Positions 38,397-54,241 of a DNA stretch of 64,000 nucleotides are shown here, in pieces. Every line of letters starts with the position of its first letter. Positions within the stretch are counted from its first letter, which is position 1. Under the pieces are notes generated by a model. That model did not search any database and had not been told where the DNA came from. It saw only the letters and a list, made by a program, of their open reading frames with translations. Made by a program: the position numbers and the translations under genes. The stretch is from Synergistaceae bacterium (lineage in GTDB: Bacteria; Synergistota; Synergistia; Synergistales; Aminobacteriaceae). Location: the NCBI GenBank assembly GCA_018436595.1, contig JAHDLC010000001.1, forward strand, positions 62,001 to 126,000, read 5' to 3'.

Positions 38397-39512
38397 ATGA
38401 AGAAGGTATTTGGTTTGCTGCTGGTTGCAGTCATGCTCTTCGGCCTTTGCGCTCCGGTTCTTGCCGGCTCCGGGAAGGTTGCGATTGTAACCAACACCGT
38501 TTCTCAGAACGAGGAAGAGTACCGTTCCGCCCAGGAGATGGTCGCGAAGTACGGCGACAGGATCGTCCACGTGACGTGGCCCGACAATTTCATGGCCGAG
38601 CAGGAGCAGATGGTCAGCGTCGTCGCCAAGCTCGCCTATGACCCGGACGTGAAGGCTCTGGTCATCAACCAGGCCGTACCGGGAACGAACGCGGCGGTGG
38701 ACAAGCTGCTCGAGACACGGGACGATGTCTTTATCGTCTACAGCACTCCCCAGGAGAATCCCCCCGATGTGGCGTCCAGGGCCCAGCTCATCCTGCAGCC
38801 CGACGAACTGGCCATGGGCAACGCCATTCCCGTCCAGGCCAAGAAGCTCGGCGCAAAGGTCTTTGTTCACTATTCCTTCCCCCGCCACATGTCCCAGGTG
38901 CTTCTTTCCTCCCGCAGGGAGCTCATGAAGAAGAAGTGCGCCGAGATCGGCCTCGAGTTCGTGGACGCCACGGCTCCGGACCCCACCGGCGACTCCGGTC
39001 TTCCCGGCGCCCAGCAGTTCATCCTTGAGGACGTGCCGAAGATGGTGGCGAAATACGGCAAGGACACGGCGTTCTTCTCCACGAACTGCGCCATGCAGAT
39101 CCCCCTGATCAAGGCTGTCGTCGATACCGGCGCCATCTATCCCCAGCCCTGCTGCCCGTCGCCCTACCACGGCTTCCCCACGGCTCTCGGCATCGAGTCC
39201 GACAGCTCCAAGCCCGGCGACCTCCAGCACGTCATCGATGAAACCCGGCGGATCCTGAAGGAAAAGGGCATGTCCGGCAGGCTTTCCACGTGGCCGGTGC
39301 CCGTGGCCATGATGTCCACCGTGGCCTCCACGGAGTACGCCTTCAAGGTCATTGCGGGCGAAGTTCCCTTCGACACGCTCGACATCAAGGTCCTCGAGCA
39401 GTGCATGGCCGATTACGCGAAGGTCGCGGTCACGACCAATCCCTACGTTGACGAAGCGGGCAAGAAGTACGACAACTACCTGTTCGTCCTGATGGACTTC
39501 CTGACCTACTAA
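38397..39512 (+). CDS. DUF3798 periplasmic binding protein-like component
   Basis: A 371-residue exported protein: signal peptide (MKKVFGLLLVAVMLFGLCAPVLAG) followed by a two-lobe type I periplasmic-binding fold (VAIVTNTVSQNEEEYRSAQE at the start, KALVINQAVPGTNAAVDKLL in the first lobe). It matches DUF3798, found next to ribose/nucleoside-type ABC transporters. It should capture the substrate of the transporter encoded downstream. Cys residues (CCPSPYH near residue 252) are unusual for this fold. The gene starts the operon; a 210-nt gap with a possible attenuator follows, which would let it be expressed above the membrane parts. Confidence 0.82.
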   Translation: MKKVFGLLLVAVMLFGLCAPVLAGSGKVAIVTNTVSQNEEEYRSAQEMVAKYGDRIVHVTWPDNFMAEQEQMVSVVAKLAYDPDVKALVINQAVPGTNAAVDKLLETRDDVFIVYSTPQENPPDVASRAQLILQPDELAMGNAIPVQAKKLGAKVFVHYSFPRHMSQVLLSSRRELMKKKCAEIGLEFVDATAPDPTGDSGLPGAQQFILEDVPKMVAKYGKDTAFFSTNCAMQIPLIKAVVDTGAIYPQPCCPSPYHGFPTALGIESDSSKPGDLQHVIDETRRILKEKGMSGRLSTWPVPVAMMSTVASTEYAFKVIAGEVPFDTLDIKVLEQCMADYAKVAVTTNPYVDEAGKKYDNYLFVLMDFLTY

Positions 39513-39599
39513 GGGTAAAAGAGGCTGTACCAGGCGAAAGTTATATTCACAACAGGCTGCAGCAAGAGTGGTGTCCGGGGACGAGCGGATTTTTCAACG

Positions 39600-39682
39600 A
39601 AGCGGGAGGCTTGGGAGCGATTTTTTCGGAGCGCTTCCGGTCCGGACCGCAGGGGTTGAATCCGTTCGCCCCCGCTTTTTTT
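39600..39682 (+). terminator. Possible attenuator between binding protein and ATPase genes
   Basis: AAGCGGG (39600-39606) can pair with CCCGCTT (39671-39677), which is followed by a run of T. The enclosed 60 nt can fold further. A partial terminator here would explain higher expression of the binding protein, but the stem is short. Confidence 0.3.
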
Positions 39683-39722
39683 GCGGCCGTCATGCCGATT
39701 TTGAAATACAGGGGGTAATGCG

Positions 39723-41339
39723 TTGAGCGACAGCCTTCTCCAGTTCAGGAATATTTCAAAGAGCTATTATGGAAACAGCGTTCTGGCAAACATCAATTTT
39801 GATGTCAGGAAGGGCGAAATCCACGCCCTCATCGGAGAGAACGGCGCCGGAAAATCCACGCTGATGAATATCCTCTTCGGCATGCCCGTCATTACGGGCA
39901 CCGGCGGATACGAGGGAGACGTCCTGATCGACGGAGAGAAAATCAGCTTCAAGTCCCCTCACGAGGCAATGTATGCCGGAATAGGCATGGTCCACCAGGA
40001 ATTCATGCTCATACCAGGCTACTCCATTACGGAAAACATCAAGATCAACAGGGAAATCACCACGCCGAACCCGGTCTCCCGTATCTTCGGGAAACGGCTT
40101 GAAACCCTCGACATGGCCTCCATGAACGCCGATGCCCGAAAAGCCCTGGACAAGCTCGACATGAACATCGAGGAGTTTACGCAGGTTGCGGGGCTTCCGG
40201 TGGGGCACATGCAGTTCGTCGAAATAGCCCGGGAAATCGACAAAACAGGGATCAAAATACTCGTTTTCGACGAGCCCACGGCGGTACTCACTGAATCGGA
40301 GGCACAGAACCTTTTGGCAGCGGTCAAACGGCTTGCTGCCAAGGGCATCGGCATTATCTTTATCAGCCACAGGCTTGATGAGATCATCAGCGTTGCCGAC
40401 AGGGTCACCATCCTCCGGGACGGTGAGCTTGTGGCCACAAAGGACATCAAAGACACCAATGCCGTGGAAATCGCCGCCCTGATGATCGGCCGAAAGGTTG
40501 CCATCGACCGGGTCCAGTCCGACAGGCGCAGGATTTCGGACGAAATTATCCTGAGCCTGAAAGACCTTCATGTAGGTATGCCCGGCGAGATGGTCCGGGG
40601 CATCGACCTCGACATCCGGAAGGGAGAAATCGTCGGCATCGGCGGTCTTGCGGGGCAGGGCAAGCTCGGCATTGCCAACGGCATCATGGGAACCTATCCG
40701 GCCAGGGGCGACGTGGTCTTCAACGGCAAACCCATGATCCTGGGCGACCCCCGTGCCGCCATGGCCTCGGGGATGGGATTCGTCAGCGAGGACAGGAAAG
40801 GCGTCGGCCTTCTGCTCAACGAGTCCATCGAGCTGAACATCGCCTTTACAGCCATGCAGGTGGGAAACAAATTTCTGAAGCAGGGAGGCCCTTTCCGCTT
40901 CCAGGATGACGACGGGATTCGGAAGCATGCCCTGAAGATGATCAAAGACCTTGATATCCGCTGCGAGTCCCCCGTCCAGCACGCCGGCAGCCTGAGCGGC
41001 GGCAACCAGCAGAAGGTCTGCGTAGCCAGGGCCCTCACCCAGGATCCGGTCTTTCTTTTCGTCTCGGAGCCCACGAGGGGCATCGACATCGGCGCGAAGA
41101 AGCTGATCCTCGACCTGCTGCTGAAGCTCAACGAAGAGGAGGGGATGACTATCGTCATGACCTCTTCCGAACTGGCGGAGCTGCGGAGCATCTGTGACAG
41201 GATCGTCATCGTCTGCGAGGGCAAGGTGGAAGGCGTGCTGCCGCCCGATGCCTCCGACGCGGAATTCGGCCTGATGATGTCCGGCAGCCGGGGCGGAAAA
41301 ACGGAAGATTCACCGGAGAGGAGTGCCGATCATGGCTGA
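39723..41339 (+). CDS. Two-domain ABC transporter ATPase (RbsA/MglA type)
   Basis: A 538-residue cytoplasmic ATPase with two fused nucleotide-binding domains. Domain 1 has Walker A GENGAGKST (about 36-44), a degenerate signature (LPVGHMQFVEIAR) and Walker B ILVFDEPTAVL. Domain 2 has a degenerate Walker A (GLAGQGKLG), an intact LSGGNQQKVCVARAL and VSEPTRGIDIGA. This unequal pair is typical of sugar and nucleoside importers of the RbsA/MglA/YufO group. TTG 39723 is the start, with GGGGGT upstream. It overlaps the permease gene by 8 nt. Confidence 0.9.
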   Translation: MSDSLLQFRNISKSYYGNSVLANINFDVRKGEIHALIGENGAGKSTLMNILFGMPVITGTGGYEGDVLIDGEKISFKSPHEAMYAGIGMVHQEFMLIPGYSITENIKINREITTPNPVSRIFGKRLETLDMASMNADARKALDKLDMNIEEFTQVAGLPVGHMQFVEIAREIDKTGIKILVFDEPTAVLTESEAQNLLAAVKRLAAKGIGIIFISHRLDEIISVADRVTILRDGELVATKDIKDTNAVEIAALMIGRKVAIDRVQSDRRRISDEIILSLKDLHVGMPGEMVRGIDLDIRKGEIVGIGGLAGQGKLGIANGIMGTYPARGDVVFNGKPMILGDPRAAMASGMGFVSEDRKGVGLLLNESIELNIAFTAMQVGNKFLKQGGPFRFQDDDGIRKHALKMIKDLDIRCESPVQHAGSLSGGNQQKVCVARALTQDPVFLFVSEPTRGIDIGAKKLILDLLLKLNEEEGMTIVMTSSELAELRSICDRIVIVCEGKVEGVLPPDASDAEFGLMMSGSRGGKTEDSPERSADHG

Positions 41340-42408
41340 GATGAACGGAAACGGAAACAACCTTGCGCGGGCCTCCCGGAACCTGCTGGGAGATATCGGC
41401 CTCCCCACGGTGATCATTGCCGTCTTCTGGGTACTCACCCTGGTCGCCGGCCACTTCGTGGGGATTTCCATGTCCACCCTCGTGAGCGACACCATCAAGC
41501 GGGCCGGAATGAACGGCATCCTCGTCCTCGCCATGGTGCCCGCCATCCAGTCGGGCACGGGGCCGAACTTCGCCCTTCCCATCGGCATCGTCTGCGGGCT
41601 CCTGGGCCTCGTCACCGCCATCGAGATGGACCTGACGGGAATGACCTGGCTCCTGACATCCTTCGCCCTCGCCTTACCCCTCGCGGCCGCTGTGGGCTAC
41701 GGCTACGGCAAGCTGATGAACGCCGTCAAGGGTTCCGAAATGACCATCGCCACTTATACGGGCTTCTCCATCGTGGCCCTCATGTGCCTGGCGTGGCTCA
41801 TGATTCCCTTCCGCAACCCGAAAATGGGCTGGTTCATCGGCAAGGGGCTCCGGGAGACCATCCAGCTCGACGCCGTGGGAGGAGCCCAGATCCTCAACAA
41901 CTTTCTTCTGTTCACCGTGGGTGATGTGATCGTTCCCACGGGTCTTCTTCTTACCTTTGCCTTTTTCGCCTTCCTCGTCTGGCTTTTCTTCAGGTCGAAG
42001 CTCGGAATCGCCATTTCCGCCGGAGGCATCAATCCGAAATTCGCCCAGGCCGCCGGTCTGAACATCGACCGGAATCGGGTGCTGGCAAACGTGGTTTCAA
42101 CCATCCTCGGCGCCATCGGGATCATCGTCTACTCCCAGAGCTACGGGTACGCCCAGCTCTACACTGCACCCCTGATGATGGCCTTCCCCGCCGTAGCGGC
42201 AATCCTCATCGGCGGAGCCACCGCCTCCCGGGCGAAGGTGTCCCACGTGGTCATCGGCGTCGTCCTCTTCCAGGGACTGCTCACCACGGCCCTCCCGGTG
42301 GCCAACGAAATCTTCGTCGGCACCGACCTGTCGGAAATCATGCGGATGATCATCCAGAACGGAATCATACTTTACGCCCTGACCCAGGTAAAAAGAGGTG
42401 TACAGTGA
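41332..42408 (+). CDS. ABC transporter permease 1 (BPD_transp_2 family)
   Basis: A 358-residue inner-membrane protein with about nine or ten helices, of the branched-chain amino acid/ribose permease family (BPD_transp_2). The cytoplasmic coupling segment is around AGLNIDRNRVLANVVSTILGAIG, followed by the AILIGGATASRAKVSH helix. GAGGAG precedes ATG 41332 by 8 nt; GTG 41323 is less likely. It overlaps the ATPase gene, and its stop overlaps the next start by one base. Confidence 0.88.
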   Translation: MAEMNGNGNNLARASRNLLGDIGLPTVIIAVFWVLTLVAGHFVGISMSTLVSDTIKRAGMNGILVLAMVPAIQSGTGPNFALPIGIVCGLLGLVTAIEMDLTGMTWLLTSFALALPLAAAVGYGYGKLMNAVKGSEMTIATYTGFSIVALMCLAWLMIPFRNPKMGWFIGKGLRETIQLDAVGGAQILNNFLLFTVGDVIVPTGLLLTFAFFAFLVWLFFRSKLGIAISAGGINPKFAQAAGLNIDRNRVLANVVSTILGAIGIIVYSQSYGYAQLYTAPLMMAFPAVAAILIGGATASRAKVSHVVIGVVLFQGLLTTALPVANEIFVGTDLSEIMRMIIQNGIILYALTQVKRGVQ

Positions 42409-43697
42409 TGGACGGACTCAACAGGAACTCGAACGGCGCAGGATCCTGGATTCTTGAAAACCTGGTGACCATTATCTTCGTGGCTTTTACCCTCTTCGGC
42501 TTCATGGTCTCCAGCGGGGTATCCGTGGGTTACTTCTTCTCCGAGCTCTCCAGCAGAGTGTTCCGGAACTCCTTCCTCGTCCTCTCTCTTATCATCCCGG
42601 TCCTTGCAGGTCTCGGGCTCAACTTCGGCATTGTCATCGGCGCCATGTCCGGCCAGGTGGCCATCGCCATCGCCCGCTACTTTGAAATGGGAGGTCTGTC
42701 GGGCCTCCTGTTCTGCTTCGCCGTGGCCATGGTGGCTGCGGCTTTCTGCGGCTACTTCACCGGGAAGCTCTACAACAAGACCCGTGGCCAGGAAATGATC
42801 GCCAGCCTCATCGTCGGGTTCTTCGCCAACGGCATTTACCAGTTCCTCTTCCTCTTTGTCGTCGGCGTGATTATCGCCGTTCCCGCAACCCATCCCATGA
42901 TCAAGCCCGACGGCATCGGCATACGGATGACCGTGGACCTTGTTCCGGTCAAACAGGGTGGTCTGAAATACGCCCTGGACAACATTTACCAGATCCCCTT
43001 CGTCCATGCTCTTCTTATCGTTGCGGTGGGACTGCTCCTGCTGCTGGCCGTCCGGTACTGGCTCAACATACGGAAAGGCCGCTCCTACCTGAACAGCCCC
43101 TTGTCCCTCGTCGTCAACGGCGGCCTGTGTCTCGCCATCGCAGGTGTGGCGATCCACGCCATGGTCACGAAATCACCGCTCATGATGGTGCGCAAGGTTC
43201 CCGTGGTAACGGGGCTGCTGATCATCGGCCTCTGCGTGTTCACGGTTCTCATCATGAAGACCAAGCTGGGGCAGGATTTCCGGTCGGTGGGTCAGAGCCA
43301 GCACACGGCGGAAGTCTCGGGGATCAACGTGGACAGGACGAGGATAATCGCCACCATGATCTCCACCGTACTGGCGTCCTGGGGGCAGATCATCTACCTC
43401 CAGAACATGGGCACTCTGAACACCTACAACGCCCACACCCAGATAGGCATGTTCTCCGTGGCGGCCCTTCTCGTCGGCGGCGCCTCCACCTCGAAGGCCG
43501 GCATAACCCACGCCATCTTCGGGACCATCCTCTTCAACGCCATGTTCATCATGTCGCCCGAGATCGGCCAGTCCCTCTTCGGACAGGCCATACTGGGAGA
43601 ATACTTCAGGACCTTCATGGTCTACGGCGTCATCGGCGTGGCCCTTGGCATCCACGTCTGGAAGGCCAACAAGAAGAGCCGGATCATGGTGGAATAA
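42408..43697 (+). CDS. ABC transporter permease 2 (BPD_transp_2 family)
   Basis: A 429-residue permease homologous to the preceding one, with the matching segment SGINVDRTRIIATMISTVLASWGQ and VAALLVGGASTSKAG. It is longer because of an insert around residues 150-210. Two different permeases plus one double ATPase make a complete heterodimeric importer. ATG 42408 shares its A with the preceding TGA. Substrate is unknown; nucleosides, sugars or amino acid derivatives are all possible for this family. Confidence 0.88.
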   Translation: MDGLNRNSNGAGSWILENLVTIIFVAFTLFGFMVSSGVSVGYFFSELSSRVFRNSFLVLSLIIPVLAGLGLNFGIVIGAMSGQVAIAIARYFEMGGLSGLLFCFAVAMVAAAFCGYFTGKLYNKTRGQEMIASLIVGFFANGIYQFLFLFVVGVIIAVPATHPMIKPDGIGIRMTVDLVPVKQGGLKYALDNIYQIPFVHALLIVAVGLLLLLAVRYWLNIRKGRSYLNSPLSLVVNGGLCLAIAGVAIHAMVTKSPLMMVRKVPVVTGLLIIGLCVFTVLIMKTKLGQDFRSVGQSQHTAEVSGINVDRTRIIATMISTVLASWGQIIYLQNMGTLNTYNAHTQIGMFSVAALLVGGASTSKAGITHAIFGTILFNAMFIMSPEIGQSLFGQAILGEYFRTFMVYGVIGVALGIHVWKANKKSRIMVE

Positions 43698-43785: not shown

Positions 43786-44315
43786 ACATTCTCGTACTCT
43801 TTCGCGCAACAACAAGTTTTACCTCTCAATCGTTTTTTCAACAGTCATGTGAATGGAAATCGCAGTATGCCAAGTCGGAAAAACAAAAAATCAATAGCGA
43901 TGCAAATTTCTGCGCCTGTATTGGAAGAAAAACAGTATCACTGGTTTTCTTCCTAAAATATTCTCATTACCCAGAAAAGCCATTATGTTTTGGGACACTA
44001 TTCAGGACAATTTACAGCTGTCAGGAGATGAAATATCTTACACTTGTCTCAGCTGAGTATGTTATTTCTAAATTTTTCATCGTGTTTTCGGGAGATGTTA
44101 AAGGGGGAAATCCGGTTCTCTCTTGATATGTGAAGTATTGGGGGCCATCTTCAGATAGTAGTCCCTAAGGAAAACTGAAGTTCCCAATTTAAAGCCTTCT
44201 TTGCCTTGTGTTTTTAACCATCTGATTCCCGAATGATTCCCGAAATTTGAGGCAGACTTATTTGCTCTTTTTCCGTCAACTTATGCAATTCCATACGACG
44301 TGCCAAGGAGAGAGA
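43786..44315. other. A+T-rich intergenic stretch without genes
   Basis: About 530 nt with frequent stops in all frames and much lower G+C than the operons on either side. No RNA gene is recognised. It contains the sequence GGACACTATTCAGGACA near 43996, which recalls insertion-sequence ends but has no partner, and the tandem repeat described separately. It marks the left edge of the lower-G+C cassette. Confidence 0.5.
44223..44244 (+). repeat. Perfect 11-bp tandem direct repeat upstream of the CapA-like gene
   Basis: TGATTCCCGAA occurs twice with no spacer at 44223-44233 and 44234-44244, about 70 nt before the start at 44316. An 11-bp period places both copies on the same face of the helix, as expected for cooperative binding by a regulator. 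Confidence 0.5.
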
Positions 44316-45623
44316 ATGATAATGGAAAAAAGTATGACTTTTTTGGCAACTGGAGATTCTCTAATCCTCAAGCATCTCCCGGACTATCCTGAATTCGCGG
44401 CAGTAAAGGACTTTATCCTTACAGCCGAGGCAAGGATTACCAATCTGGAAACAACACTTACCGATGGGAATTGCTTCCCGTCCGCTTATTCTGGAGGAAC
44501 CTGGCTGACTTCCCGCCCGGACGTTATCCAGGACCTGAAGAAGTTTGGTTTCAATATTTTCTGCTGGGCCAACAACCACACCATGGATTACTCCTATGAA
44601 GGGCTTTTAATGACCAAAGCCAGCCTGGATACTGCCGATGTGGCGCACTGCGGAGCGGGGGAAAATCTTTACGAGGCTTCAAAACCTGCAATGGTAGACC
44701 TTCCCTCCGGAAGGGTCGGCGTTATATCAATATGTTCATCATTTGAACCGGCTGCTCAGGCCGGAATCCAGTCTCAGAGCCAACCCGGACGCCCCGGACT
44801 GAACCCTTTGCGTTTTTCCACCACATTCACGGTGACACCGGAACAGATGAAAGCCTTGAAAGAAATTGCTGCCGCCACGAAAATCAACAATCGTACGGAT
44901 GTTTCCAAAATACAGGGATACACTCTCAGGGAGCCGGAGGGAACCTTTGATTTTGGAAGTTCCCGTTTTGCTGTCGGAGATACTCCCGGACGCATGACCC
45001 GGCCTAACAAGGCTGATATAGAGCGAACAGTTGATACGATCCGCGATGCATTGCTTTCCGTCGATTATGTTGTAGTCGCAGTACATTCCCATGAAATAAA
45101 GGACGTTACTAACGACGAACCTGACTTTTTCTACGAGGAGTTTGCCAGAAAGTGTATTGATGCCGGTGCCTGCGCGGTGGTAGGAGGAGGAACACATCAG
45201 TTAAAGGGGATAGAAATGTACAAAAAGAGGCCCATTTTTTATTCCCTTGGGAATTTCATTTTTCAGAATGCGTTCGTAGAAAAGCTCCCCCCCGACTATA
45301 TGGAAAAGAACGGGCTTCCCCTCGATACACGGACGGCCTCAGCGTTCCAGGCGAGAAGTGAAAGGGCGTCTGTTCCCCTTCACAATGACGCGGCGAACTT
45401 TCAGACAGTTCTTCCCTGGTTCCGTATGGAAGGCGACCGATTGACGAAGCTTGTTCTCAAACCCATATCTCTTGGACAAAAATTGCCGCAATATTATTCC
45501 ACCTGGCCAAGAGTGGCTGATGAAGCCGAAAGCCAGGCTATTTTCGATACACTGGTAAGATTAAGCGCCCCTTATGGAACCAAATTGGTGAAAAGAGAAG
45601 ATTTGATTGAGGTGGAGCTCTAA
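44316..45623 (+). CDS. CapA-family (PGA_cap) metallophosphoesterase-like protein, cytosolic
   Basis: A 435-residue protein of the CapA/PgsA metallophosphatase-like family. Family motifs appear in order: LATGDSLI (Asp near residue 13), ARITNLETTL, FCWANNHTMDYSYEG (Asn-His pair), VVAVHSHE, GGGTHQLKGIE and YSLGNFIFQ. CapA proteins of capsule loci have an N-terminal membrane anchor; this one has neither anchor nor signal peptide, so it should act in the cytosol. GGAG lies 5 nt before ATG 44316. With the M20 amidohydrolase and peptide ABC transporter downstream it may process imported glutamyl-type peptides; this is inference. Codon use is more A+T-rich than in neighbours outside the cassette. Confidence 0.8.
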   Translation: MIMEKSMTFLATGDSLILKHLPDYPEFAAVKDFILTAEARITNLETTLTDGNCFPSAYSGGTWLTSRPDVIQDLKKFGFNIFCWANNHTMDYSYEGLLMTKASLDTADVAHCGAGENLYEASKPAMVDLPSGRVGVISICSSFEPAAQAGIQSQSQPGRPGLNPLRFSTTFTVTPEQMKALKEIAAATKINNRTDVSKIQGYTLREPEGTFDFGSSRFAVGDTPGRMTRPNKADIERTVDTIRDALLSVDYVVVAVHSHEIKDVTNDEPDFFYEEFARKCIDAGACAVVGGGTHQLKGIEMYKKRPIFYSLGNFIFQNAFVEKLPPDYMEKNGLPLDTRTASAFQARSERASVPLHNDAANFQTVLPWFRMEGDRLTKLVLKPISLGQKLPQYYSTWPRVADEAESQAIFDTLVRLSAPYGTKLVKREDLIEVEL

Positions 45624-45691
45624 AAAGGACATAAAGAAAGCTCCGGTTTTGGCTGAATTTTTCATGACGATCAGCACCAGGAGGGATGCCC

Positions 45692-47023
45692 ATGTACGCA
45701 CATATAGAAGAACTGGCGGACAGGATGACGGAGAAGCTTGTCGCCTGCCGCAGGGATTTCCACAAGCACGCGGAAAGCGGATGGTTCGAGATGAGGACGG
45801 CCTCTCTCATCGCCAGGCGTCTCACCGATATGGGCTATGAAGTCCTTGCAGGTCGTGACGTTTGCCTTGACGAATCCCGCATGGGACTGCCCCCGGAAGA
45901 AGAGCTCGAGAAGAACTGCCTCCGGGCGAAGGAACAGGGGGCTGACACGGAATTCCTTGAGAAAGTCCGGGGCGGCTTCACCGGGGTAATGGGAATCCTC
46001 CGCTGCGGGGAAGGCCCCACTGTGGCCCTCCGGTTCGACATCGACGCCCTGGGCGTGGTGGAAGACGCCTCCCCCGGTCACCGTCCATTCCGGGAAGGCT
46101 TCAGTTCCGTGAACCCCGGCATGATGCACGCCTGCGGCCATGACGGCCATGCAGCCATCGGCCTTGGCGTGGCGGAGATCCTCATGGCGGTGAAAGACGG
46201 CCTGCGGGGCACCGTCAAAATCATTTTCCAGCCTGCCGAGGAAGGAGTGCGGGGTGCCAAAAGCATCGTGGACAAGGGGCATCTCGACGGCGTGGATTTC
46301 GTCCTTGCCTGCCACGTCACAGAGAGGACCACCGCCGAGGACAGGGGCACCGACATCACCGCCGGGACGGGCGGCTCCCTGGCCACCTCCAAGATGGACG
46401 CATACTATTACGGAAAATCCGCCCACGCCGGTGGCGACCCCCAGGAAGGACGCAACGCCCTTGCCGCCGCCGTCACTGCCGTCCAGAACCTGCTGGCCAT
46501 CCCCCGGAACAGCAAGTCCGACACCAGGGTCAACGTGGGTACCCTTCACGCCGGTTCGGGGAGGAACGTCATCCCGGAATTCGCAAAAATGGAGCTGGAA
46601 GTCCGGGGCAAAACCAGTGAGGGAAACATCTACATGGAGCAGTGGGCCCAGCGGATCCTCCGGACGGCCGCCGAAATGCACGACTGCACCTGCGAAGTGA
46701 AGAAAATGGGGGAGGCCTTCCTTCTGGAAAGCGACAGGCCTCTCATGGAACTCATCCGGGACGTTTGCGAACAGAACCTCGGCACCGTTAAAGTTCACCC
46801 CCAGCTTCGCCGGGAGGCCTCGGGCAGCGAAGACTTCTCCTACATGATGAAGCGGGTGCAGGACCAGGGAGGGCAGGCCTCCATGCTGCGGATCCTCACC
46901 GAAACGGCTGCCGTTGCCCACAACAGCAGATACGACTTCGACGACACCGACGCCCTGCCCAAGGCAGTCAAGGCCATCAGCGCCGTAACCTTCAGGCTCC
47001 TCTCGGGAGGCTGCAGGTGCTGA
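45692..47023 (+). CDS. AbgA-like M20 amidohydrolase
   Basis: A 443-residue M20D metallopeptidase-like enzyme that would cleave N-acyl amino acids such as p-aminobenzoyl-glutamate. Metal and catalytic elements are RFDIDALG, MHACGHDGHAAIGLG (Cys, His, Asp), PAEEGVRGAK, the dimerisation domain with KSAHAGGDPQEGRNAL, and REASGSEDFSYMM near the end. The opening CRRDFHKHAESGWFEMRTAS and the insert RMGLPPEEELEKN are typical of AbgA. No signal peptide is present. AGGAGG is 7 nt before ATG 45692. Its base composition is G+C-rich, unlike the genes on each side, so the cassette looks like a mosaic. Confidence 0.88.
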   Translation: MYAHIEELADRMTEKLVACRRDFHKHAESGWFEMRTASLIARRLTDMGYEVLAGRDVCLDESRMGLPPEEELEKNCLRAKEQGADTEFLEKVRGGFTGVMGILRCGEGPTVALRFDIDALGVVEDASPGHRPFREGFSSVNPGMMHACGHDGHAAIGLGVAEILMAVKDGLRGTVKIIFQPAEEGVRGAKSIVDKGHLDGVDFVLACHVTERTTAEDRGTDITAGTGGSLATSKMDAYYYGKSAHAGGDPQEGRNALAAAVTAVQNLLAIPRNSKSDTRVNVGTLHAGSGRNVIPEFAKMELEVRGKTSEGNIYMEQWAQRILRTAAEMHDCTCEVKKMGEAFLLESDRPLMELIRDVCEQNLGTVKVHPQLRREASGSEDFSYMMKRVQDQGGQASMLRILTETAAVAHNSRYDFDDTDALPKAVKAISAVTFRLLSGGCRC

Positions 47024-47242
47024 AGAGAAAGCATCCCGTAAAACGATTGGGGAAAAACTCCAGTTAACTCGAGTGATCACGTTGAAAGGGGTTGATGCCA
47101 CGGACGTTCCTTCACTCTTTTCTCCCGTAAATTCGGGCTTTTTAGAAAAAAGAAATAACTGTTCGAGACTTCAACGGCAATGCCGCCGGATTGTATTGAC
47201 GACGGCGGAGGAGTAAAAATGAAAAAAACAGGAGGAATCAAG

Positions 47243-48805
47243 ATGAAGAGAAAGCGTACTATGATTTTTGTTACAGCGCTTGCACTGATGGTTCTCCTCT
47301 CCTTCAGCGGAGTAAGTACTGCTGCATCCGGCCGCGATGACATCAATCTGTCGTTGAATCAGGTAATAGAAACTCTCAACCCTTTTAACGTCAGTTCAAT
47401 TATTTGCACTCAGCTTTACTGCCAGATATATGATGTATTGTTTTTCCAAAACGATGCGGGAGAGCTGGAACCCCGCCTTGCGGAAAGTTTTGAACTGGCT
47501 GAGGACAATGTAACCTATACTGTACACCTGCGCGACGGGGTCAAGTTTCATAACGGCAAGAAACTTACCGCAGAGGACGCCGCATGGTCAATCGACTACG
47601 CGCTTAAATCCGGGCCCTACAAAATGATACGTCCGAAGGTTCCCGGATATAAAAGCGTAAAAGTGATCGATGACCTCACCTTCCAGATTGTTTCGGACGG
47701 ACCGAATCCAACCCTTCTGAACAATATATCCATCTGGGTCAATATCCTTTGTAAAGAGGAAGTCCTTGCTGCCGGCGAGAAATTCGGGATTGAGTGGATC
47801 CCGTGCGGAGCGGGGCCATATGTGATTTCATCCTATAATCCGGATACGGAAATAGAGCTCAAGGCTTTCGAGGATTATTATCAGGGACCAGCTTCGATTA
47901 AAAAAGTAAATTACAAAATCCTCACCGACAATAACACCATAACGGTTGCTTTTGAATCGGGCGAACTGGATCTCATTGTCGTGCCTACGGCCGCATGGAC
48001 GAGATTCAAGTCGAACAGCGACTATAATACCTACCTCTCTCCTACCAATCACACGAGCTTCTTCCATATCAACTCAATTCGGGGCGATGTACTTTCAGAC
48101 AAGCGCGTCCGCCAGGCATTCTCCTACGCCATGGATCGTGAGATGATGGTAATAGCTGCCTATGACGGCATCGCCCAGACCGCGTACTCCCTGTTCAATC
48201 CCTCTTCCGTGTTCGGCGGTTTCACCGTGGAAGAAATGGAGAAAGCCGGAATTCCGAGTTACCAGTACGACCCTGAAAAAGCGAAGACCCTCCTTGCTGA
48301 GGCAGGTTACCCGAACGGCTTTGATGCGGGGAAGATTTTGTGTATCAGCGGCAGCTACTGGGAGAAAATGTCCACTGTTTTTCAGGCCAATCTTGCGGAT
48401 ATTGGCGTAAAAGTGGATATTGAAGTGGCTGATTCAGCTTCCTGCAGGGCACGCAGGTATGACCAGGACTATGATATTTCCAACACGGGTACTAATTTCA
48501 CGCCGGAAGCCACGTACGGCTACATTTATTTCAAGTACTTGAGCGATGAAGCCAGAAAGGCGGGAGAACGAACTGAACTTGGTCTTAAGGACCGCGAACT
48601 TGATGATGTTTACAGGAAAGTACTCACGGAAATGAACAGGGAAAAGCGAAAAGCTGCCTATCTTGATCTGAACCGCCTCCTTCAGGACAGGATGTACACC
48701 ATACCAACGTTCCACAAGGCGATACCCTATGCCTACAGCAAAGATCTGGTCTGCGACGAGATCAACACAAACTATTACTATATCTACAAGTTCCACTGGA
48801 AATAA
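47243..48805 (+). CDS. Peptide ABC transporter substrate-binding protein (SBP_bac_5)
   Basis: A 520-residue exported solute-binding protein of the DppA/OppA family. The signal peptide is MKRKRTMIFVTALALMVLLSFSGVSTAASG. The body has the SBP_bac_5 opening (PRLAESFELAEDNVTYTVHLRDGVKFHNGKKLTAED split over residues 60-105) and VRQAFSYAMDREMMV near residue 295. No lipobox Cys is seen, so it is probably soluble in the periplasm. ATG 47243 has AGGAGG 8 nt upstream; ATG 47219 also has a good SD and would add eight residues. It heads the transport genes of the cassette. Confidence 0.88.
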   Translation: MKRKRTMIFVTALALMVLLSFSGVSTAASGRDDINLSLNQVIETLNPFNVSSIICTQLYCQIYDVLFFQNDAGELEPRLAESFELAEDNVTYTVHLRDGVKFHNGKKLTAEDAAWSIDYALKSGPYKMIRPKVPGYKSVKVIDDLTFQIVSDGPNPTLLNNISIWVNILCKEEVLAAGEKFGIEWIPCGAGPYVISSYNPDTEIELKAFEDYYQGPASIKKVNYKILTDNNTITVAFESGELDLIVVPTAAWTRFKSNSDYNTYLSPTNHTSFFHINSIRGDVLSDKRVRQAFSYAMDREMMVIAAYDGIAQTAYSLFNPSSVFGGFTVEEMEKAGIPSYQYDPEKAKTLLAEAGYPNGFDAGKILCISGSYWEKMSTVFQANLADIGVKVDIEVADSASCRARRYDQDYDISNTGTNFTPEATYGYIYFKYLSDEARKAGERTELGLKDRELDDVYRKVLTEMNREKRKAAYLDLNRLLQDRMYTIPTFHKAIPYAYSKDLVCDEINTNYYYIYKFHWK

Positions 48806-48922
48806 ACAGAAAAGTCTTAGGAAACAAGATTTAGGAAAGTAATCTTTTGGAGGCGCATGGTCTGCACGGTTCAAAATTTCGGCCATGCGCCATTTCCAGG
48901 AATGCGATGGAGCGAAAACACC

Positions 48923-49867
48923 ATGATCAAATACATCATCCGGCGGCTGATTGTTCTGATTCCAATCATAATTGGCGTGACGCTGGTAGTCTTCACCATT
49001 CTCGAGATGACTCCCGGCGATCCTGCAAAAATGATGCTCGGTGACGGCGCAACACTGGAACAATTTCAGGCTTTCAACGCGAAATTTGGGCTCGACAAGC
49101 CATTCGTCTATCGCTTTTTTAATTACATTCTTCAGCTGTTCACCCGGTTTGATTTCGGAACCTCCTGGCTTACATCCAGGCCTGTCCTTGACACGCTGAA
49201 GGCAAGAGTTCCGATAACGCTCATCATTGCCGTATCCAGCATCGCATTTGCCAGCATCATAGGTGTTTCTCTTGGTGTCATCTCAGCCGTGAAGCAATAT
49301 TCAAAACTAGACTACATATCCCGCCTTACAGCCATGATACTGGCTGCAGTTCCCGTTTTCTGGCTGGGGATGATGCTGGCTATACTGTTTGCGCTGAAAC
49401 TCGGATGGCTTCCATCAAGCGGGACAGGGAGCTGGAAGCACTATATCCTTCCAATGATGACTCTGGGCCTGCCCTATTCTGCCCGTATCCTGAGAAGCAC
49501 GAGGGGTTACATGCTCGAAGCTGTCCGCCAGGATTTTGTACGTACCGCCCGGTCGAAAGGTGTACCTGAAAGGGTCGTTATTTGGAAACATGCGTTCCTT
49601 AACGCCTGTCTGCCCGTAATAAACACTATCGGCGTGTACATGGGAGGCCTTCTTGGCGGAGCGGTGGTAACAGAGAACGTATTCGGGTGCAATGGCCTGG
49701 GCAGCTTTATCATAAACTCGGTGAAGAGGAAGGATATACCGGCAGTCACTGGCGGAACGGTTTTTCTGGCGATCATATTTGCCCTCATCCTTCTTTCTGT
49801 GGACATCCTGTATGCTTTTGTGGATCCAAGGATAAAAGCCCGCTACACGGCAAAGGGGGCGAAATAG
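48923..49867 (+). CDS. dppB: Peptide ABC transporter permease, DppB-like
   Basis: A 314-residue permease with six helices that begins MIKYIIRRLIVLIPIIIGVT, the usual DppB/OppB start, followed by EMTPGDPAKMMLG. The coupling loop (EAA motif) is RTARSKGVPERVVIWKHAFLNA. ATG 48923 is chosen by homology of the start; the SD is weak (GGAGCG). The next gene starts 2 nt after its stop. Confidence 0.9.
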   Translation: MIKYIIRRLIVLIPIIIGVTLVVFTILEMTPGDPAKMMLGDGATLEQFQAFNAKFGLDKPFVYRFFNYILQLFTRFDFGTSWLTSRPVLDTLKARVPITLIIAVSSIAFASIIGVSLGVISAVKQYSKLDYISRLTAMILAAVPVFWLGMMLAILFALKLGWLPSSGTGSWKHYILPMMTLGLPYSARILRSTRGYMLEAVRQDFVRTARSKGVPERVVIWKHAFLNACLPVINTIGVYMGGLLGGAVVTENVFGCNGLGSFIINSVKRKDIPAVTGGTVFLAIIFALILLSVDILYAFVDPRIKARYTAKGAK

Positions 49868-49869
49868 AC

Positions 49870-50742
49870 ATGTTTATGGGGAAAAAGTCCTCCCGCAGCA
49901 TGTCTCCCCTTCAGGAGACGATATATCGCTTTAGCCAGAACAAGGTGTCCCTGATCGGCCTGGCTGTCGTAATTCTTCTTTTACTCGTCATCATATTCGG
50001 AGAGTTTGTGACTCCCTTTGAGAATGGTGTAAAGCAGAACATCCGAATACGCCTCCAGGGGCCAAGCGCCGAACACTGGTTCGGTACAGATGCCTACGGG
50101 CGGGATATTTTTACGCGAGTTCTTCACGGGACAAAATACACAATGATGATAGCGTTCCCTGCGACTTTTATCGCTGAGGTAATCGGCATTATCCTCGGAG
50201 CGTGTGCTGCGTTCTACAGCAGATGGTTCGACAACATTTTGATGCGCGTCCTTGACGTGTTCCAGGCTATTCCAGGACAGCTGCTCGCTCTGGCGGTTGT
50301 GGCAGCTTTGGGGGGATCGATTTTTAACCTTGTGATTGCGATGCTAATAGCGAGAATTCCTGCAAGTGTACGAACGGCCAGGTCCATAATGATTTCTCTT
50401 GTCGGACAGGAGTACATCGATGCCGCACGATCCTACGGCAGCAGGGATTACCACCTGATTTTCCGGCACGTTATTCCGAATTCACTTGGTGCCATGATTG
50501 TAAGCATGACGATTAACCTTTCGGCCATTACTCTGCAGGTTTCAAGCATGTCCTACATCGGTTTGGGCGTAAGCCCTCCCACCCCCGAGTGGGGAGCCCT
50601 CCTGAGCGAGGCGCGGGAATTCATCATAACTGCTCCGCATATGATCATCTTCCCCGGGATTGCAATCCTGCTGACGGCTCTCTCCTTCAACCTGGTGGGA
50701 GATGGTCTGCGGGACGCTCTTGACCCAAGGCTCAGGGACTGA
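49870..50742 (+). CDS. dppC: Peptide ABC transporter permease, DppC-like
   Basis: A 290-residue second permease of the Opp/Dpp type: N-terminal helix (about 28-50), the family sequence HWFGTDAYGRDIFTRVLHGT and the EAA loop (EYIDAARSYGSRDYHLIFRHVIPN). It ends GDGLRDALDPRLRD as DppC proteins do. ATG 49876 is an alternative start. Its TGA overlaps an ATG at 50742, so it is closely linked to the ATPase gene. Confidence 0.9.
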   Translation: MFMGKKSSRSMSPLQETIYRFSQNKVSLIGLAVVILLLLVIIFGEFVTPFENGVKQNIRIRLQGPSAEHWFGTDAYGRDIFTRVLHGTKYTMMIAFPATFIAEVIGIILGACAAFYSRWFDNILMRVLDVFQAIPGQLLALAVVAALGGSIFNLVIAMLIARIPASVRTARSIMISLVGQEYIDAARSYGSRDYHLIFRHVIPNSLGAMIVSMTINLSAITLQVSSMSYIGLGVSPPTPEWGALLSEAREFIITAPHMIIFPGIAILLTALSFNLVGDGLRDALDPRLRD

Positions 50743-50756
50743 TGGAGGAAAGGCTT

Positions 50757-51764
50757 ATGAATACATCGAATAATATGCTGCTAAAAGTTGAGAATCTCCA
50801 GGTGGTCTACAAAGCGCGAAGAGAAACTGTGTACGCAGTCAACGGAGTCAGTCTCTCCCTCAAAAAAGGCGAGACGTTGGGTCTGGTGGGTGAAACAGGT
50901 GCCGGGAAAACCACTACAGCCTACGCGATACTGCGGGTCCTGCCCGACCGTACTGCAAAGGTTGTTAACGGAACGATAGAATTTGAAGGCAAGAATCTGC
51001 TTGAAGTCCCTGAAAATCTTATGCGCCACGGTATACGGGGGGAAAAGATCGCCATTATTTTTCAGGACCCCATGTCTGCCCTCAATCCTATCATGAAGGT
51101 CGGAGACCAGATTGCAGAAGCGCTCAAATTCCATAACAAGGAAGAACTTTCACCGGAAAAGATCGAAGAACAAGTTGACAGGACACTTGAACTCGTCGGT
51201 ATTCAAAAGGAGCGAAAGTATGATTTCCCTCACCAGCTGAGCGGAGGGATGAAGCAGCGTGTCGTGATAGCAATAGCCCTTGTCTGTGAGCCGGTCCTCA
51301 TCATAGCCGATGAGCCTACGACCGCACTGGATGTGACTATCCAGGCCCAGGTTCTTGCCATGATTGACGAGCTTCGCGAGAAGCTCGGGACCGCTATGAT
51401 CCTCATCACCCATGATCTCGGAATTGTTGCCCAGATGTGCGATAACGTAGCTATCATGTATGCCGGAGAGATCATAGAGATAGGTTCCGTTGAGGAGATT
51501 TACTCAGGAAAAATGCAGCACCCCTATACCACCGGACTCTTCGGTTCCCTGCCGGACCTGGAGAAGAAGACTGACCGTCTGTACCCTATCGAAGGTCTTA
51601 TGCCGGATCCTACGGATCTTCCAACGGGCTGCAAGTTCAATCCCCGATGTCCGCGCTGCATGGACATCTGCAGAGAGGTCCAGCCTGGATTTTCCGTGGA
51701 AGGCACTCACAGGGTCGCATGTCATCTTTATGGCGGCGGTACGGGGAGGGAAACAGATGAGTGA
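50757..51764 (+). CDS. dppD: Peptide ABC transporter ATPase, DppD-like
   Basis: A 335-residue ATPase: Walker A GETGAGKTTT, Q-loop IFQDPMSALNP, signature LSGGMKQRVVIAIAL, Walker B ADEPTTALDVT and the C-terminal oligopeptide-transporter extension with a Cys cluster (CKFNPRCPRCMDIC) that binds an iron-sulfur or zinc site in this family. GGAGG lies 8 nt before ATG 50757; ATG 50742, overlapping the preceding stop, is the alternative. It overlaps the next gene by 8 nt. Confidence 0.9.
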   Translation: MNTSNNMLLKVENLQVVYKARRETVYAVNGVSLSLKKGETLGLVGETGAGKTTTAYAILRVLPDRTAKVVNGTIEFEGKNLLEVPENLMRHGIRGEKIAIIFQDPMSALNPIMKVGDQIAEALKFHNKEELSPEKIEEQVDRTLELVGIQKERKYDFPHQLSGGMKQRVVIAIALVCEPVLIIADEPTTALDVTIQAQVLAMIDELREKLGTAMILITHDLGIVAQMCDNVAIMYAGEIIEIGSVEEIYSGKMQHPYTTGLFGSLPDLEKKTDRLYPIEGLMPDPTDLPTGCKFNPRCPRCMDICREVQPGFSVEGTHRVACHLYGGGTGRETDE

Positions 51765-52728
51765 GAAAAAAAAGCCTATACTGGTCGTAAATAACCTGAA
51801 AAAATATTTCAGGACGAAAAAGGGCCTTCTTCATGCGGTTGACGACGTTTCATTCACGATTGACGAAGGCAGGACTCTCGGTGTCGTGGGCGAATCGGGC
51901 TGCGGGAAATCCACACTTGGGAAAACGATACTGCGCCTTACAGAACCCACCGGCGGCGAAGTGTTTCTCGAAGGAGAGGATATAGTCTCCATGAATGAGA
52001 AACAGCTTCGAAAGACCCGCCTGAAAATGCAGATGATATTTCAGGATCCCTATTCAAGCATCGATCCGCGTATGAGTGTCGCCCAGATCATATCCGATCC
52101 TTTGAAGGTCAATCGTCTCTGCGGCAGCAGAAAGGAAATTGATGACCGTGTAGACAGAATGATGGATGTAGTCGGGCTTGCTCCGCGGCTGAGAGATTCC
52201 TACCCCCATGAACTGGATGGGGGCCGCAGGCAGAGAATAGGCATTGCCCGGGCTCTCGCTCTCGATCCTAAATTCATAATCTGCGATGAACCGGTTTCCG
52301 CTCTGGATGTTTCGATACAGGCGCAGATTATCAATATCCTCATGGATCTGAAGGAAGAAAAGGGTCTTACTTACATTTTTATCACCCACGATCTTTCGGT
52401 CGTCAAACATATCTCCGATGAAATAGCCGTGATGTACCTCGGACAATGTGTTGAAAAAGCTTCGTCTGATGAACTGTTCTCTCAACCGCTTCACCCCTAT
52501 ACGAAAGCCCTTCTTGCGGCGATTCCCGTGCCCAACCTTTCGAAGAGGCATGCCAGGCCGACAGTCATCAGGGGGGAGGTCGGCAATCCTATTGACCCCG
52601 CACCCGGCTGCCGTTTTGCCCCCAGGTGTGATTTTGCCACCGAAAAATGTGTCGGCAGAAATCCTGAACTCAGGGAAGTGGCTAATGGGCATTTTGTGGC
52701 ATGCTTGCTGCATAACGGCGAAATGTAG
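51757..52728 (+). CDS. dppF: Peptide ABC transporter ATPase, DppF-like
   Basis: A 323-residue ATPase with Walker A GESGCGKST, Q-loop IFQDPYSSIDPRMS, Walker B FIICDEPVSALDVS, and the Cys-containing C-terminal extension (CRFAPRCDFATEKCVG). The ABC signature reads LDGGRRQRIGIAR instead of LSGGQ, replacing the conserved Ser by Asp; some peptide-transporter ATPases share this, so it need not be inactivating. It completes the importer with DppB, DppC and DppD. A hairpin terminator follows the stop. Confidence 0.9.
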   Translation: MSEKKKPILVVNNLKKYFRTKKGLLHAVDDVSFTIDEGRTLGVVGESGCGKSTLGKTILRLTEPTGGEVFLEGEDIVSMNEKQLRKTRLKMQMIFQDPYSSIDPRMSVAQIISDPLKVNRLCGSRKEIDDRVDRMMDVVGLAPRLRDSYPHELDGGRRQRIGIARALALDPKFIICDEPVSALDVSIQAQIINILMDLKEEKGLTYIFITHDLSVVKHISDEIAVMYLGQCVEKASSDELFSQPLHPYTKALLAAIPVPNLSKRHARPTVIRGEVGNPIDPAPGCRFAPRCDFATEKCVGRNPELREVANGHFVACLLHNGEM

Positions 52729-52731
52729 CTT

Positions 52732-52762
52732 GAAACGTCCCGGTTTTTTCCCGGGACGTTTC
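52732..52762 (+). terminator. Hairpin terminator after the peptide transporter genes
   Basis: GAAACGTCCCGG and CCGGGACGTTTC form a perfect 12-bp stem with a T-rich 7-nt loop. No T run follows, so it could also be an RNA-stabilising 3' end. Confidence 0.65.
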
Positions 52763-52918
52763 ACATATGGTCCCGTATAGGAATGAAAAATCAGTGCCGG
52801 CAGTTGGATGATGAAAGGCAGGGAATGAATCCCGCGTCACGTTGTACAATAAAACAGTCCGGTTTGGGCGTCAGAAATCCGGAATGAAAAGCAGGGATGA
52901 AAAAGGCGGTGGCATGAA

Positions 52919-54241
52919 GTGATCATAGGAGTTCTTGGCCCGGCTGACAGTGTTGCCCACGTAATGAAGGTTGCTGAGAAGAGCGAACCTTACATCGACC
53001 TGGTCCCGATGGTGTATCGAAACTATTGTGAGGCCGTGGAAATGCTGGAGTCAAGGCAGCGGGAACTCGAAGGCGTTCTCTTTACTGGTTTCGAGATTTT
53101 CACCTACGCGAGCGGCCTTGTGAAACCTCTTGTCCCGTGGGAGCACACGAGCTGTAATGTGATGACGCTTTCCTGCAGTATCCTTCTGGCAGGTTCAAAG
53201 GGATACGACGTCACAAAAATGAGTTTTGATGGATTTGGAACGCTGAACAACATAATTCTCGACGCATACCTGGAAATAGGGTATTCTCCGGATCAGTTGC
53301 AGGTGTATGTTCCGAGAAGGCGAAAAAACAACGAAAAAAATTACATTGACTACCTTTGTGATTTCCATACGGACCTTTTCAAAAGAGGAAAAATCAGCTG
53401 CTCCATTCATGGATCCAGCGAATCCTACGCCCGGCTGAAAGAAACTGGTCTCCCGTGCTTTCGCCGGATGTTTTTTTCCGAACCTGTGAGAGAGCAGCTC
53501 ATAAAACTCCGGCTTCGTCACCAGATTTCAGAGAACAGCGGAAGCAATGCTTCAGTTATTTCTGTAGAGATGGACGTTGTGGACCATTATGCCGTCTATG
53601 GAAAAAGCGAACTCGAAACCTTCTATAGGACCAAACAGGTAACAGAATCCATTTATGTATTCGGACAGAAGATAGGAGCGGCAGTTATCGGAGCGACCAA
53701 TGGGCGGCATTATATTTTTACGAACACAGCGGCTCTTCGAAATGAGACAAAAAACTTCAAATCCTTTGACCTGCTTGGATCTCTCGTTGCGGATGGGGCT
53801 GTGAACAGGGTTCATATCGGCATCGGCATGGGAAAGAATGCATTCGAGGCAAAAAGCAACGCCGACTACGGAAGAGAAAAATCAAGTCTTTCAGGTGAGA
53901 ACAGCCTGTATATAGTTTTCGGAGACAAAACTGTCAAAGGACCCCTGACTCCTGCAGGCGGTAGCCCTCAGAAAAGGCAGAATGACCGGCTTCAGGAAAT
54001 ATCCCGTAAATCGGGATTAGGTCTTTTGACGCTTCAGAAGCTTGACCAGGTGCTGAAACAATATCGTATTGACGTAGTAACCCCTGTAGACTTGGCCCGA
54101 ATTTACGGCGTGAGTCCCAGAAGTATGAACCGGATTCTTTCGAAACTTGAATCCGCCGGAAGCTATATACAGTATGTCGGGACGGATGTTCGGCATGAAG
54201 TCGGACGGCCCAGCCGCCTTTTGAAAATTAACCTGGGGTAG
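52919..54241 (+). CDS. Unfamiliar regulator: sensor-like N-terminus, possible GTP-cyclohydrolase III/GGDEF-like domain, C-terminal HTH
   Basis: Not recognised as a named family. The 440 residues show three parts. Residues 1-190 look like an alpha/beta sensor domain (IIGVLGPADSVAHVMKVAE opening). Residues 200-345 include GAAVIGATNGRHYIFTNT and HIGIGMGKNAFEAKSNADYG, a glycine-rich helix start that recalls the nucleotide-binding fold shared by GTP cyclohydrolase III and GGDEF domains, but no GGDEF motif is present. Residues 375-440 fit a winged helix (TPVDLARIYGVSPRSMNRILSKLESAG). GTG 52919 follows GGCGGTGG. Placed directly after the peptide transporter and before the boundary terminator, it is the natural candidate regulator of the cassette. 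It has no membrane segment. Confidence 0.6.
   Translation: MIIGVLGPADSVAHVMKVAEKSEPYIDLVPMVYRNYCEAVEMLESRQRELEGVLFTGFEIFTYASGLVKPLVPWEHTSCNVMTLSCSILLAGSKGYDVTKMSFDGFGTLNNIILDAYLEIGYSPDQLQVYVPRRRKNNEKNYIDYLCDFHTDLFKRGKISCSIHGSSESYARLKETGLPCFRRMFFSEPVREQLIKLRLRHQISENSGSNASVISVEMDVVDHYAVYGKSELETFYRTKQVTESIYVFGQKIGAAVIGATNGRHYIFTNTAALRNETKNFKSFDLLGSLVADGAVNRVHIGIGMGKNAFEAKSNADYGREKSSLSGENSLYIVFGDKTVKGPLTPAGGSPQKRQNDRLQEISRKSGLGLLTLQKLDQVLKQYRIDVVTPVDLARIYGVSPRSMNRILSKLESAGSYIQYVGTDVRHEVGRPSRLLKINLG

Follow-up and report, generated by a model that had tools for sequence, protein, structure and literature searches.

A putative one-component regulator with PrpR_N-like, degenerate GGDEF-like and winged-helix domains encoded next to an Opp–M20 locus in a Synergistaceae bacterium

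Regulators of the PucR/CdaR/MabR type are composed of a Diacid_rec, PucR or globin sensor, a GGDEF_2 domain (PF17853) and a C-terminal HTH_30 domain (PF13556), and they often regulate the use of amino acids, purines or organic acids. PrpR, the activator of propionate catabolism, carries its PrpR_N domain (PF06506) in front of a sigma-54 AAA domain and a Fis-type HTH. The order sensor, GGDEF-like domain and HTH is an established one for PucR, CdaR and MabR (PMC11617747), and the first-pass annotation went too far in stating that it is absent from the familiar regulator families. The GGDEF-like domain of MabR, a member of the PucR family, lacks both the catalytic and the inhibitory motifs, and the role considered for it goes no further than that of a possible effector site (PMC11617747).

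The regulator described here resembles these proteins in having a sensor, an apparently catalytically dead GGDEF-like domain and a C-terminal HTH, as well as in its size (about 400–550 aa for the group). What is unusual is not the domain order. It is the particular sensor, which is PrpR_N-like, and the presence of a winged helix in place of HTH_30. With PrpR the protein shares the N-terminal sensor, a likeness seen by profile comparison and lying below Pfam detection. It differs from PrpR in its GGDEF-like middle domain, in a winged helix instead of the Fis-type HTH and in lacking the AAA+ domain; Pfam matched no sigma-54 AAA+ domain in the regulator or its family. The GdpP-type GGDEF domain (PF24898) and the archaeal GTP cyclohydrolase III (PF05165) are similar in the pattern GxGxG…A…A that follows the last core strands. 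The regulator, however, has neither the DHH/DHHA1 phosphodiesterase of GdpP nor the tandem domains of the cyclohydrolase, and the catalytic signature is lost. The likeness to winged helices of the MarR, CRP and IclR types is limited to the C-terminal 60–90 residues, the DNA-binding part. A literature search found no paper on an architecture composed of PrpR_N-like, GGDEF-like and winged-helix domains.

The regulator gene (52919..54241, + strand) is located in a window of 64,000 nucleotides, the whole stretch of DNA that was analysed, and encodes a protein of 440 amino acid residues from a GTG start codon. The open reading frame is real and not a product of chance, since homologues have intact frames, among them the orthologues of two sister species at 90% and 75% protein identity. 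A third relative (G001) has an orthologue that is 97–99% identical but interrupted: a stop or frameshift beside an A-rich run breaks the gene (L080:10628-11949, G001:C6) in the region encoding RRRKNNEKN, either as a genuine pseudogene or through an assembly error. The genome G002 yielded no family member. No Pfam or NCBIfam model scored above its cut-off for the 440-aa protein, and its three domains, PrpR_N-like, GGDEF-like and winged helix, were recognized from sequence. An AlphaFold model of the full-length regulator, built from a three-sequence alignment, had a mean pLDDT of 43, with residues 1–353 below 50. The folds proposed for the first two domains hence depend on the comparison of sequence profiles, for which hhalign gave probabilities no higher than 29–53%.

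A profile built from eleven members matched proteins in 48 of 188 Synergistota genomes. Among the matches listed, about 30 of the 188 genomes have one that extends beyond the winged helix, the rest being cross-matches of the DNA-binding domain. Four further members were found on replicons of a plasmid collection, from Bacillus badius, Paenibacillus cellulositrophicus, Prescottella equi and Nonomuraea gerenzanensis; the annotated ones are labelled 'hypothetical protein'. The viral contigs scanned contained no relatives of the family. In an alignment of 28 members, most are 17–35% identical to the window protein, and five residues (G301, G303, A315, G429 and R430) are invariant.

The N-terminal domain (residues 1–198; 52919..53512, +) was assigned by comparing the alignment of the 28 family members (A5) with 15 PrpR_N domains of the same phylum in hhalign. 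The N-terminal part aligned with PrpR_N over 145 collinear columns (E 1.3e-4, score 32.7). None of 149 column shuffles reached this score (maximum 21.4), and the reversed alignment scored 15.9. The Pfam PrpR_N model (PF06506) had no match at its cut-off, so that the relation is seen by profile–profile comparison and is a remote one. A search of the N-terminal profile against PDB sequences returned nothing meaningful. Asp/Glu racemase, another two-lobed alpha/beta fold, was also considered and rejected, its hhalign score falling within those of the shuffles.

The C-terminus (residues 346–440; 53954..54241, +) is a winged helix by prediction and presumably binds DNA. Pfam and the PDB profile search relate it to winged helices of the Crp, MarR and IclR types: HTH_Crp_2 is matched by 19 of the 28 members (E up to 1) and MarR_2 with E values down to 7.4e-6. 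The HTH core lies at about residues 388–414 and a conserved GRP at 429–431. AlphaFold models this end of the protein as helices that lead into a two-stranded wing (pLDDT 81–87), the sole confidently modelled part. The sensor-like N-terminus and the C-terminal winged helix that had been proposed from the sequence at first sight were both borne out, the former now specified as PrpR_N-like and the latter by Pfam together with AlphaFold.

The middle domain (residues 199–345; 53513..53953, +) is predicted as a degenerate GGDEF or palm-like domain. The motif GIGMGKNAFEAKSNADYG (residues 301–318; 53819..53872, +) corresponds to the SIGIA strand and next helix of GGDEF domains, and to GIGIGRTAEDA of GTP cyclohydrolase III; it contains G301, G303 and A315, three of the five invariant residues. 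In a search of 177,635 PDB sequences, the family profile of this domain matched GTP cyclohydrolase III best (2qv6, E 0.0085), aligned on GIGIGRTAEDASNLA, followed by a c-di-AMP phosphodiesterase with a GdpP-type GGDEF domain (9n0l, E 0.057). In hhalign the domain aligned with 22 canonical GGDEF domains from the same genome over 113 columns (E 5.8e-4, score 26.7), with DxD strand, GGDEF loop and SIGIA strand all falling into register. Column shuffles reached that score in 0 of 149 cases (maximum 20.3), and eight unrelated decoy alignments gave E values of 0.19 or worse. PF24898 matched the window regulator with an E value of 0.057, and PF05165 had no match in the window protein, which does not have the make-up of the full two-domain enzyme. 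AlphaFold models of the isolated middle domain, from three sequences, reached a mean pLDDT of 32. By these profile comparisons the likeness to GTP cyclohydrolase III and GGDEF domains exceeds chance, and what had initially been guessed from a single motif proved right.

The active-site signature, on the other hand, is degenerate. The position of the GGDEF signature reads NGRHY in the window protein (53699..53713, +), hence the GG(D/E)EF motif of diguanylate cyclases is absent. The signature is lost in 27 of the 28 members; GGDEY is retained only in the member from Paenibacillus (L049). Since the signature is gone in all members except one, the middle domain is most likely a pseudo-enzyme, a catalytic role appears unlikely, and a ligand would more likely be bound by the N-terminal domain. 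Nucleotide binding by the middle domain is possible.

In the window, the regulator is the last gene of a same-strand block. It opens with a PGA_cap/CapA-like protein (44247..45623, +; PF09587, E 6.4e-49), followed by an amidohydrolase/peptidase of the M20 family (45686..47023, +; PF01546, E 5.9e-33) and an OppA-type solute-binding protein (47180..48805, +; PF00496, E 1.1e-81). The next four open reading frames were named from their sequence character, and each has orthologues by the regulator in sister species: an OppB-type permease (48857..49867, +), an OppC-type permease (49687..50742, +; the frame starts upstream of the likely true start), an OppD-type ATPase (50742..51764, +) and an OppF-type ATPase (51757..52728, +, from MSEKKKP). 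In G001, G003 and G004 the opp genes and the regulator stand in the same order over the stretch that the contigs span, even where protein identity has fallen to 75%. In G002, the M20 gene (L121:5164-6582, G002:C5; 93% protein identity) has no Opp operon or regulator beside it, which suggests that the Opp genes and the regulator move or are lost as a unit, independently of the hydrolase gene.

Between oppF and the regulator lies a hairpin with a 13-bp perfect inverted repeat and a 7-nt loop (52731..52763, +). Two sister species retain it, G003 with a wobble pair and G004 with compensatory changes; RNA folding gave a z value of about -5 to -6, and there is no clear T run. The hairpin is probably a 3'-end element of the opp transcript, of a terminator- or processing-like kind, and therefore the regulator gene may have its own promoter.

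We propose, with a probability of roughly 0.6, that the protein is a one-component regulator with a PrpR_N-like sensor, a degenerate GGDEF-like domain and a winged helix, and that it controls the local uptake and hydrolysis of peptides or acyl-amino acids. The N-terminal domain would bind a small molecule that is imported through, or made by, the neighbouring Opp–M20 system, possibly a peptide-derived compound or an N-acyl or gamma-glutamyl amino acid. The pseudo-cyclase domain would relay the signal and stabilize the dimer, and it may still contain a remnant of a nucleotide pocket. The winged helices would then switch the local uptake-and-hydrolysis operon, either activating or repressing it, and probably also the regulator's own gene.

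Alternatively, the middle domain itself may be the sensor, binding GTP, ATP, c-di-GMP or c-di-AMP and thereby coupling peptide use to the nucleotide state. Its top PDB matches are nucleotide enzymes, its GxG is among the strictly invariant residues, and one member keeps GGDEY. Moreover, the organism's own genome (3.2 Mb) encodes 27 GGDEF-domain hits, none of GdpP type, and hence has a strong capacity for c-di-GMP signalling and very likely makes c-di-GMP. However, an invariant GxG strand can be structural, and the signature loop differs in 27 of the 28 members with no conserved acidic pair in its place. In addition, the comparable domain of MabR, without catalytic and inhibitory motifs, has an unidentified effector (PMC11617747). 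We regard nucleotide sensing by the middle domain as possible but on balance unlikely. A combined arrangement, in which one winged helix integrates the output of a PrpR_N-like sensor and that of a nucleotide-binding pseudo-cyclase, would make uptake follow both substrate and nucleotide state and would define a class of regulators that crosses phyla; this we consider doubtful.

The control of peptide use, already suspected in the first-pass annotation, is supported by gene context, through the conserved order of opp and regulator and through the neighbours in the wider family. An amide hydrolase and/or an Opp or AbgT transporter is encoded at 19 of 25 family loci and at none of 20 random loci, a contrast that is inflated for some loci because the neighbour queries were partly taken from family loci, several of which are related to each other. 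For the random loci, 20 stretches of 16 kb were picked arbitrarily in four of the genomes, and a single query set was used throughout. A stronger argument than the count is that the hydrolases belong to unlike families. Same-strand neighbours include LrgB–regulator–Opp (G167), histidine kinase–regulator–Opp–M42 peptidases (G020), M20–AbgT–regulator (G127) and regulator–Amidohydro_3–SHMT–M20 (G186), whereas the G124 regulator is oriented divergently to the genes of a permease-like protein and a gamma-glutamyltranspeptidase. Another arrangement, DUF5058–220 aa–Amidohydro_3–regulator, was tested with Pfam in G001, and trios of the same sizes occur in G003, G007, G061 and G064. The trio (L091:9626-12668, with equivalents at L089, L090, L092 and L096) lies directly upstream of family members; its 220-aa protein has no Pfam match and may form, together with the DUF5058 protein, an undescribed two-part transporter for the substrate of the amidohydrolase.

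Could the regulator stand beside opp by chance and control something unrelated? The stable hairpin behind oppF means that the two may not be co-transcribed, and some members have other neighbours, those in Paenibacillus and Nonomuraea matching the theme of hydrolases and transporters poorly. Against this stand the conservation of the order in three sister species, to the level of 75% protein identity, and the recurrence of amide-hydrolase and transporter neighbours in distant lineages, which make a chance placement decidedly unlikely.

The domain order and a profile match to GGDEF_2 (hhalign, E 2.4e-4) would also agree with a diverged true member of the PucR/CdaR family. This match, however, covers only 35 columns, compared with 113 for canonical GGDEF, to which the domain is therefore similar over more of its length, and PF17853 was matched by Pfam in none of the eight members listed singly. 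HTH_30 (PF13556) is found neither in these eight members nor among the 25 families most often matched by the 28 members, and it is winged helices of the Crp/MarR/IclR type that match the C-terminus. Given the winged helix and the missing HTH_30 match, there is no support for placing the protein in PucR/CdaR, and we hold such a descent to be improbable. A CdaR with the arrangement Diacid_rec–GGDEF_2–HTH_30 is encoded near the family member at L086 (G124).

Least of all is the middle domain expected to retain activity, as a cyclase or a cyclohydrolase-like enzyme whose product is a signal nucleotide and whose output partner is the winged helix: the Paenibacillus member retains NVDHFE and GGDEY, yet it has Asn for the first Asp of the DxD strand, and the GG(D/E)EF signature is absent from the window protein and nearly all others, so that we consider this highly improbable. 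The Paenibacillus protein itself (L049:7947-9326, WP_244364749.1) matches PF24898 over 123 of 126 positions (E 3.8e-6) and PF05165 with an E value of 0.036, and is a possible active or nucleotide-binding, ancestor-like form. This makes it a natural case for asking whether a nucleotide was bound, or produced, by the ancestor.

The analysis anchors a sizeable unnamed regulator family in Synergistota, Bacillota and Actinomycetota that lies outside Pfam and NCBIfam and has been annotated as 'hypothetical protein'. It provides a domain plan and a testable function, the control of the use of peptides and of N-acyl and gamma-glutamyl amino acids. If the preferred reading of a PrpR_N-like sensor, degenerate GGDEF-like domain and winged helix is correct, the family would be a further example of a transcription factor that has taken up a GGDEF fold for a non-catalytic role, and it bears on the question of why such dead domains are found repeatedly between a sensor and an HTH, as in MabR and PucR.

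Directly before the block, the window encodes a DUF3798 binding protein, followed by an ABC ATPase that has two ATPase domains and by two permeases (38397-43697), which together look like an importer of the sugar/nucleoside type. The PGA_cap gene is preceded by a promoter-like site, and upstream of that site lies a near-perfect palindrome of 31 bp, GGAAGAAAAACAGT-atc-ACTGGTTTTCTTCC (43923..43953). It occurs once in the window and is identical in the near sister G001, the contig of G003 ending there, and may be regarded as a weak candidate for an operator.
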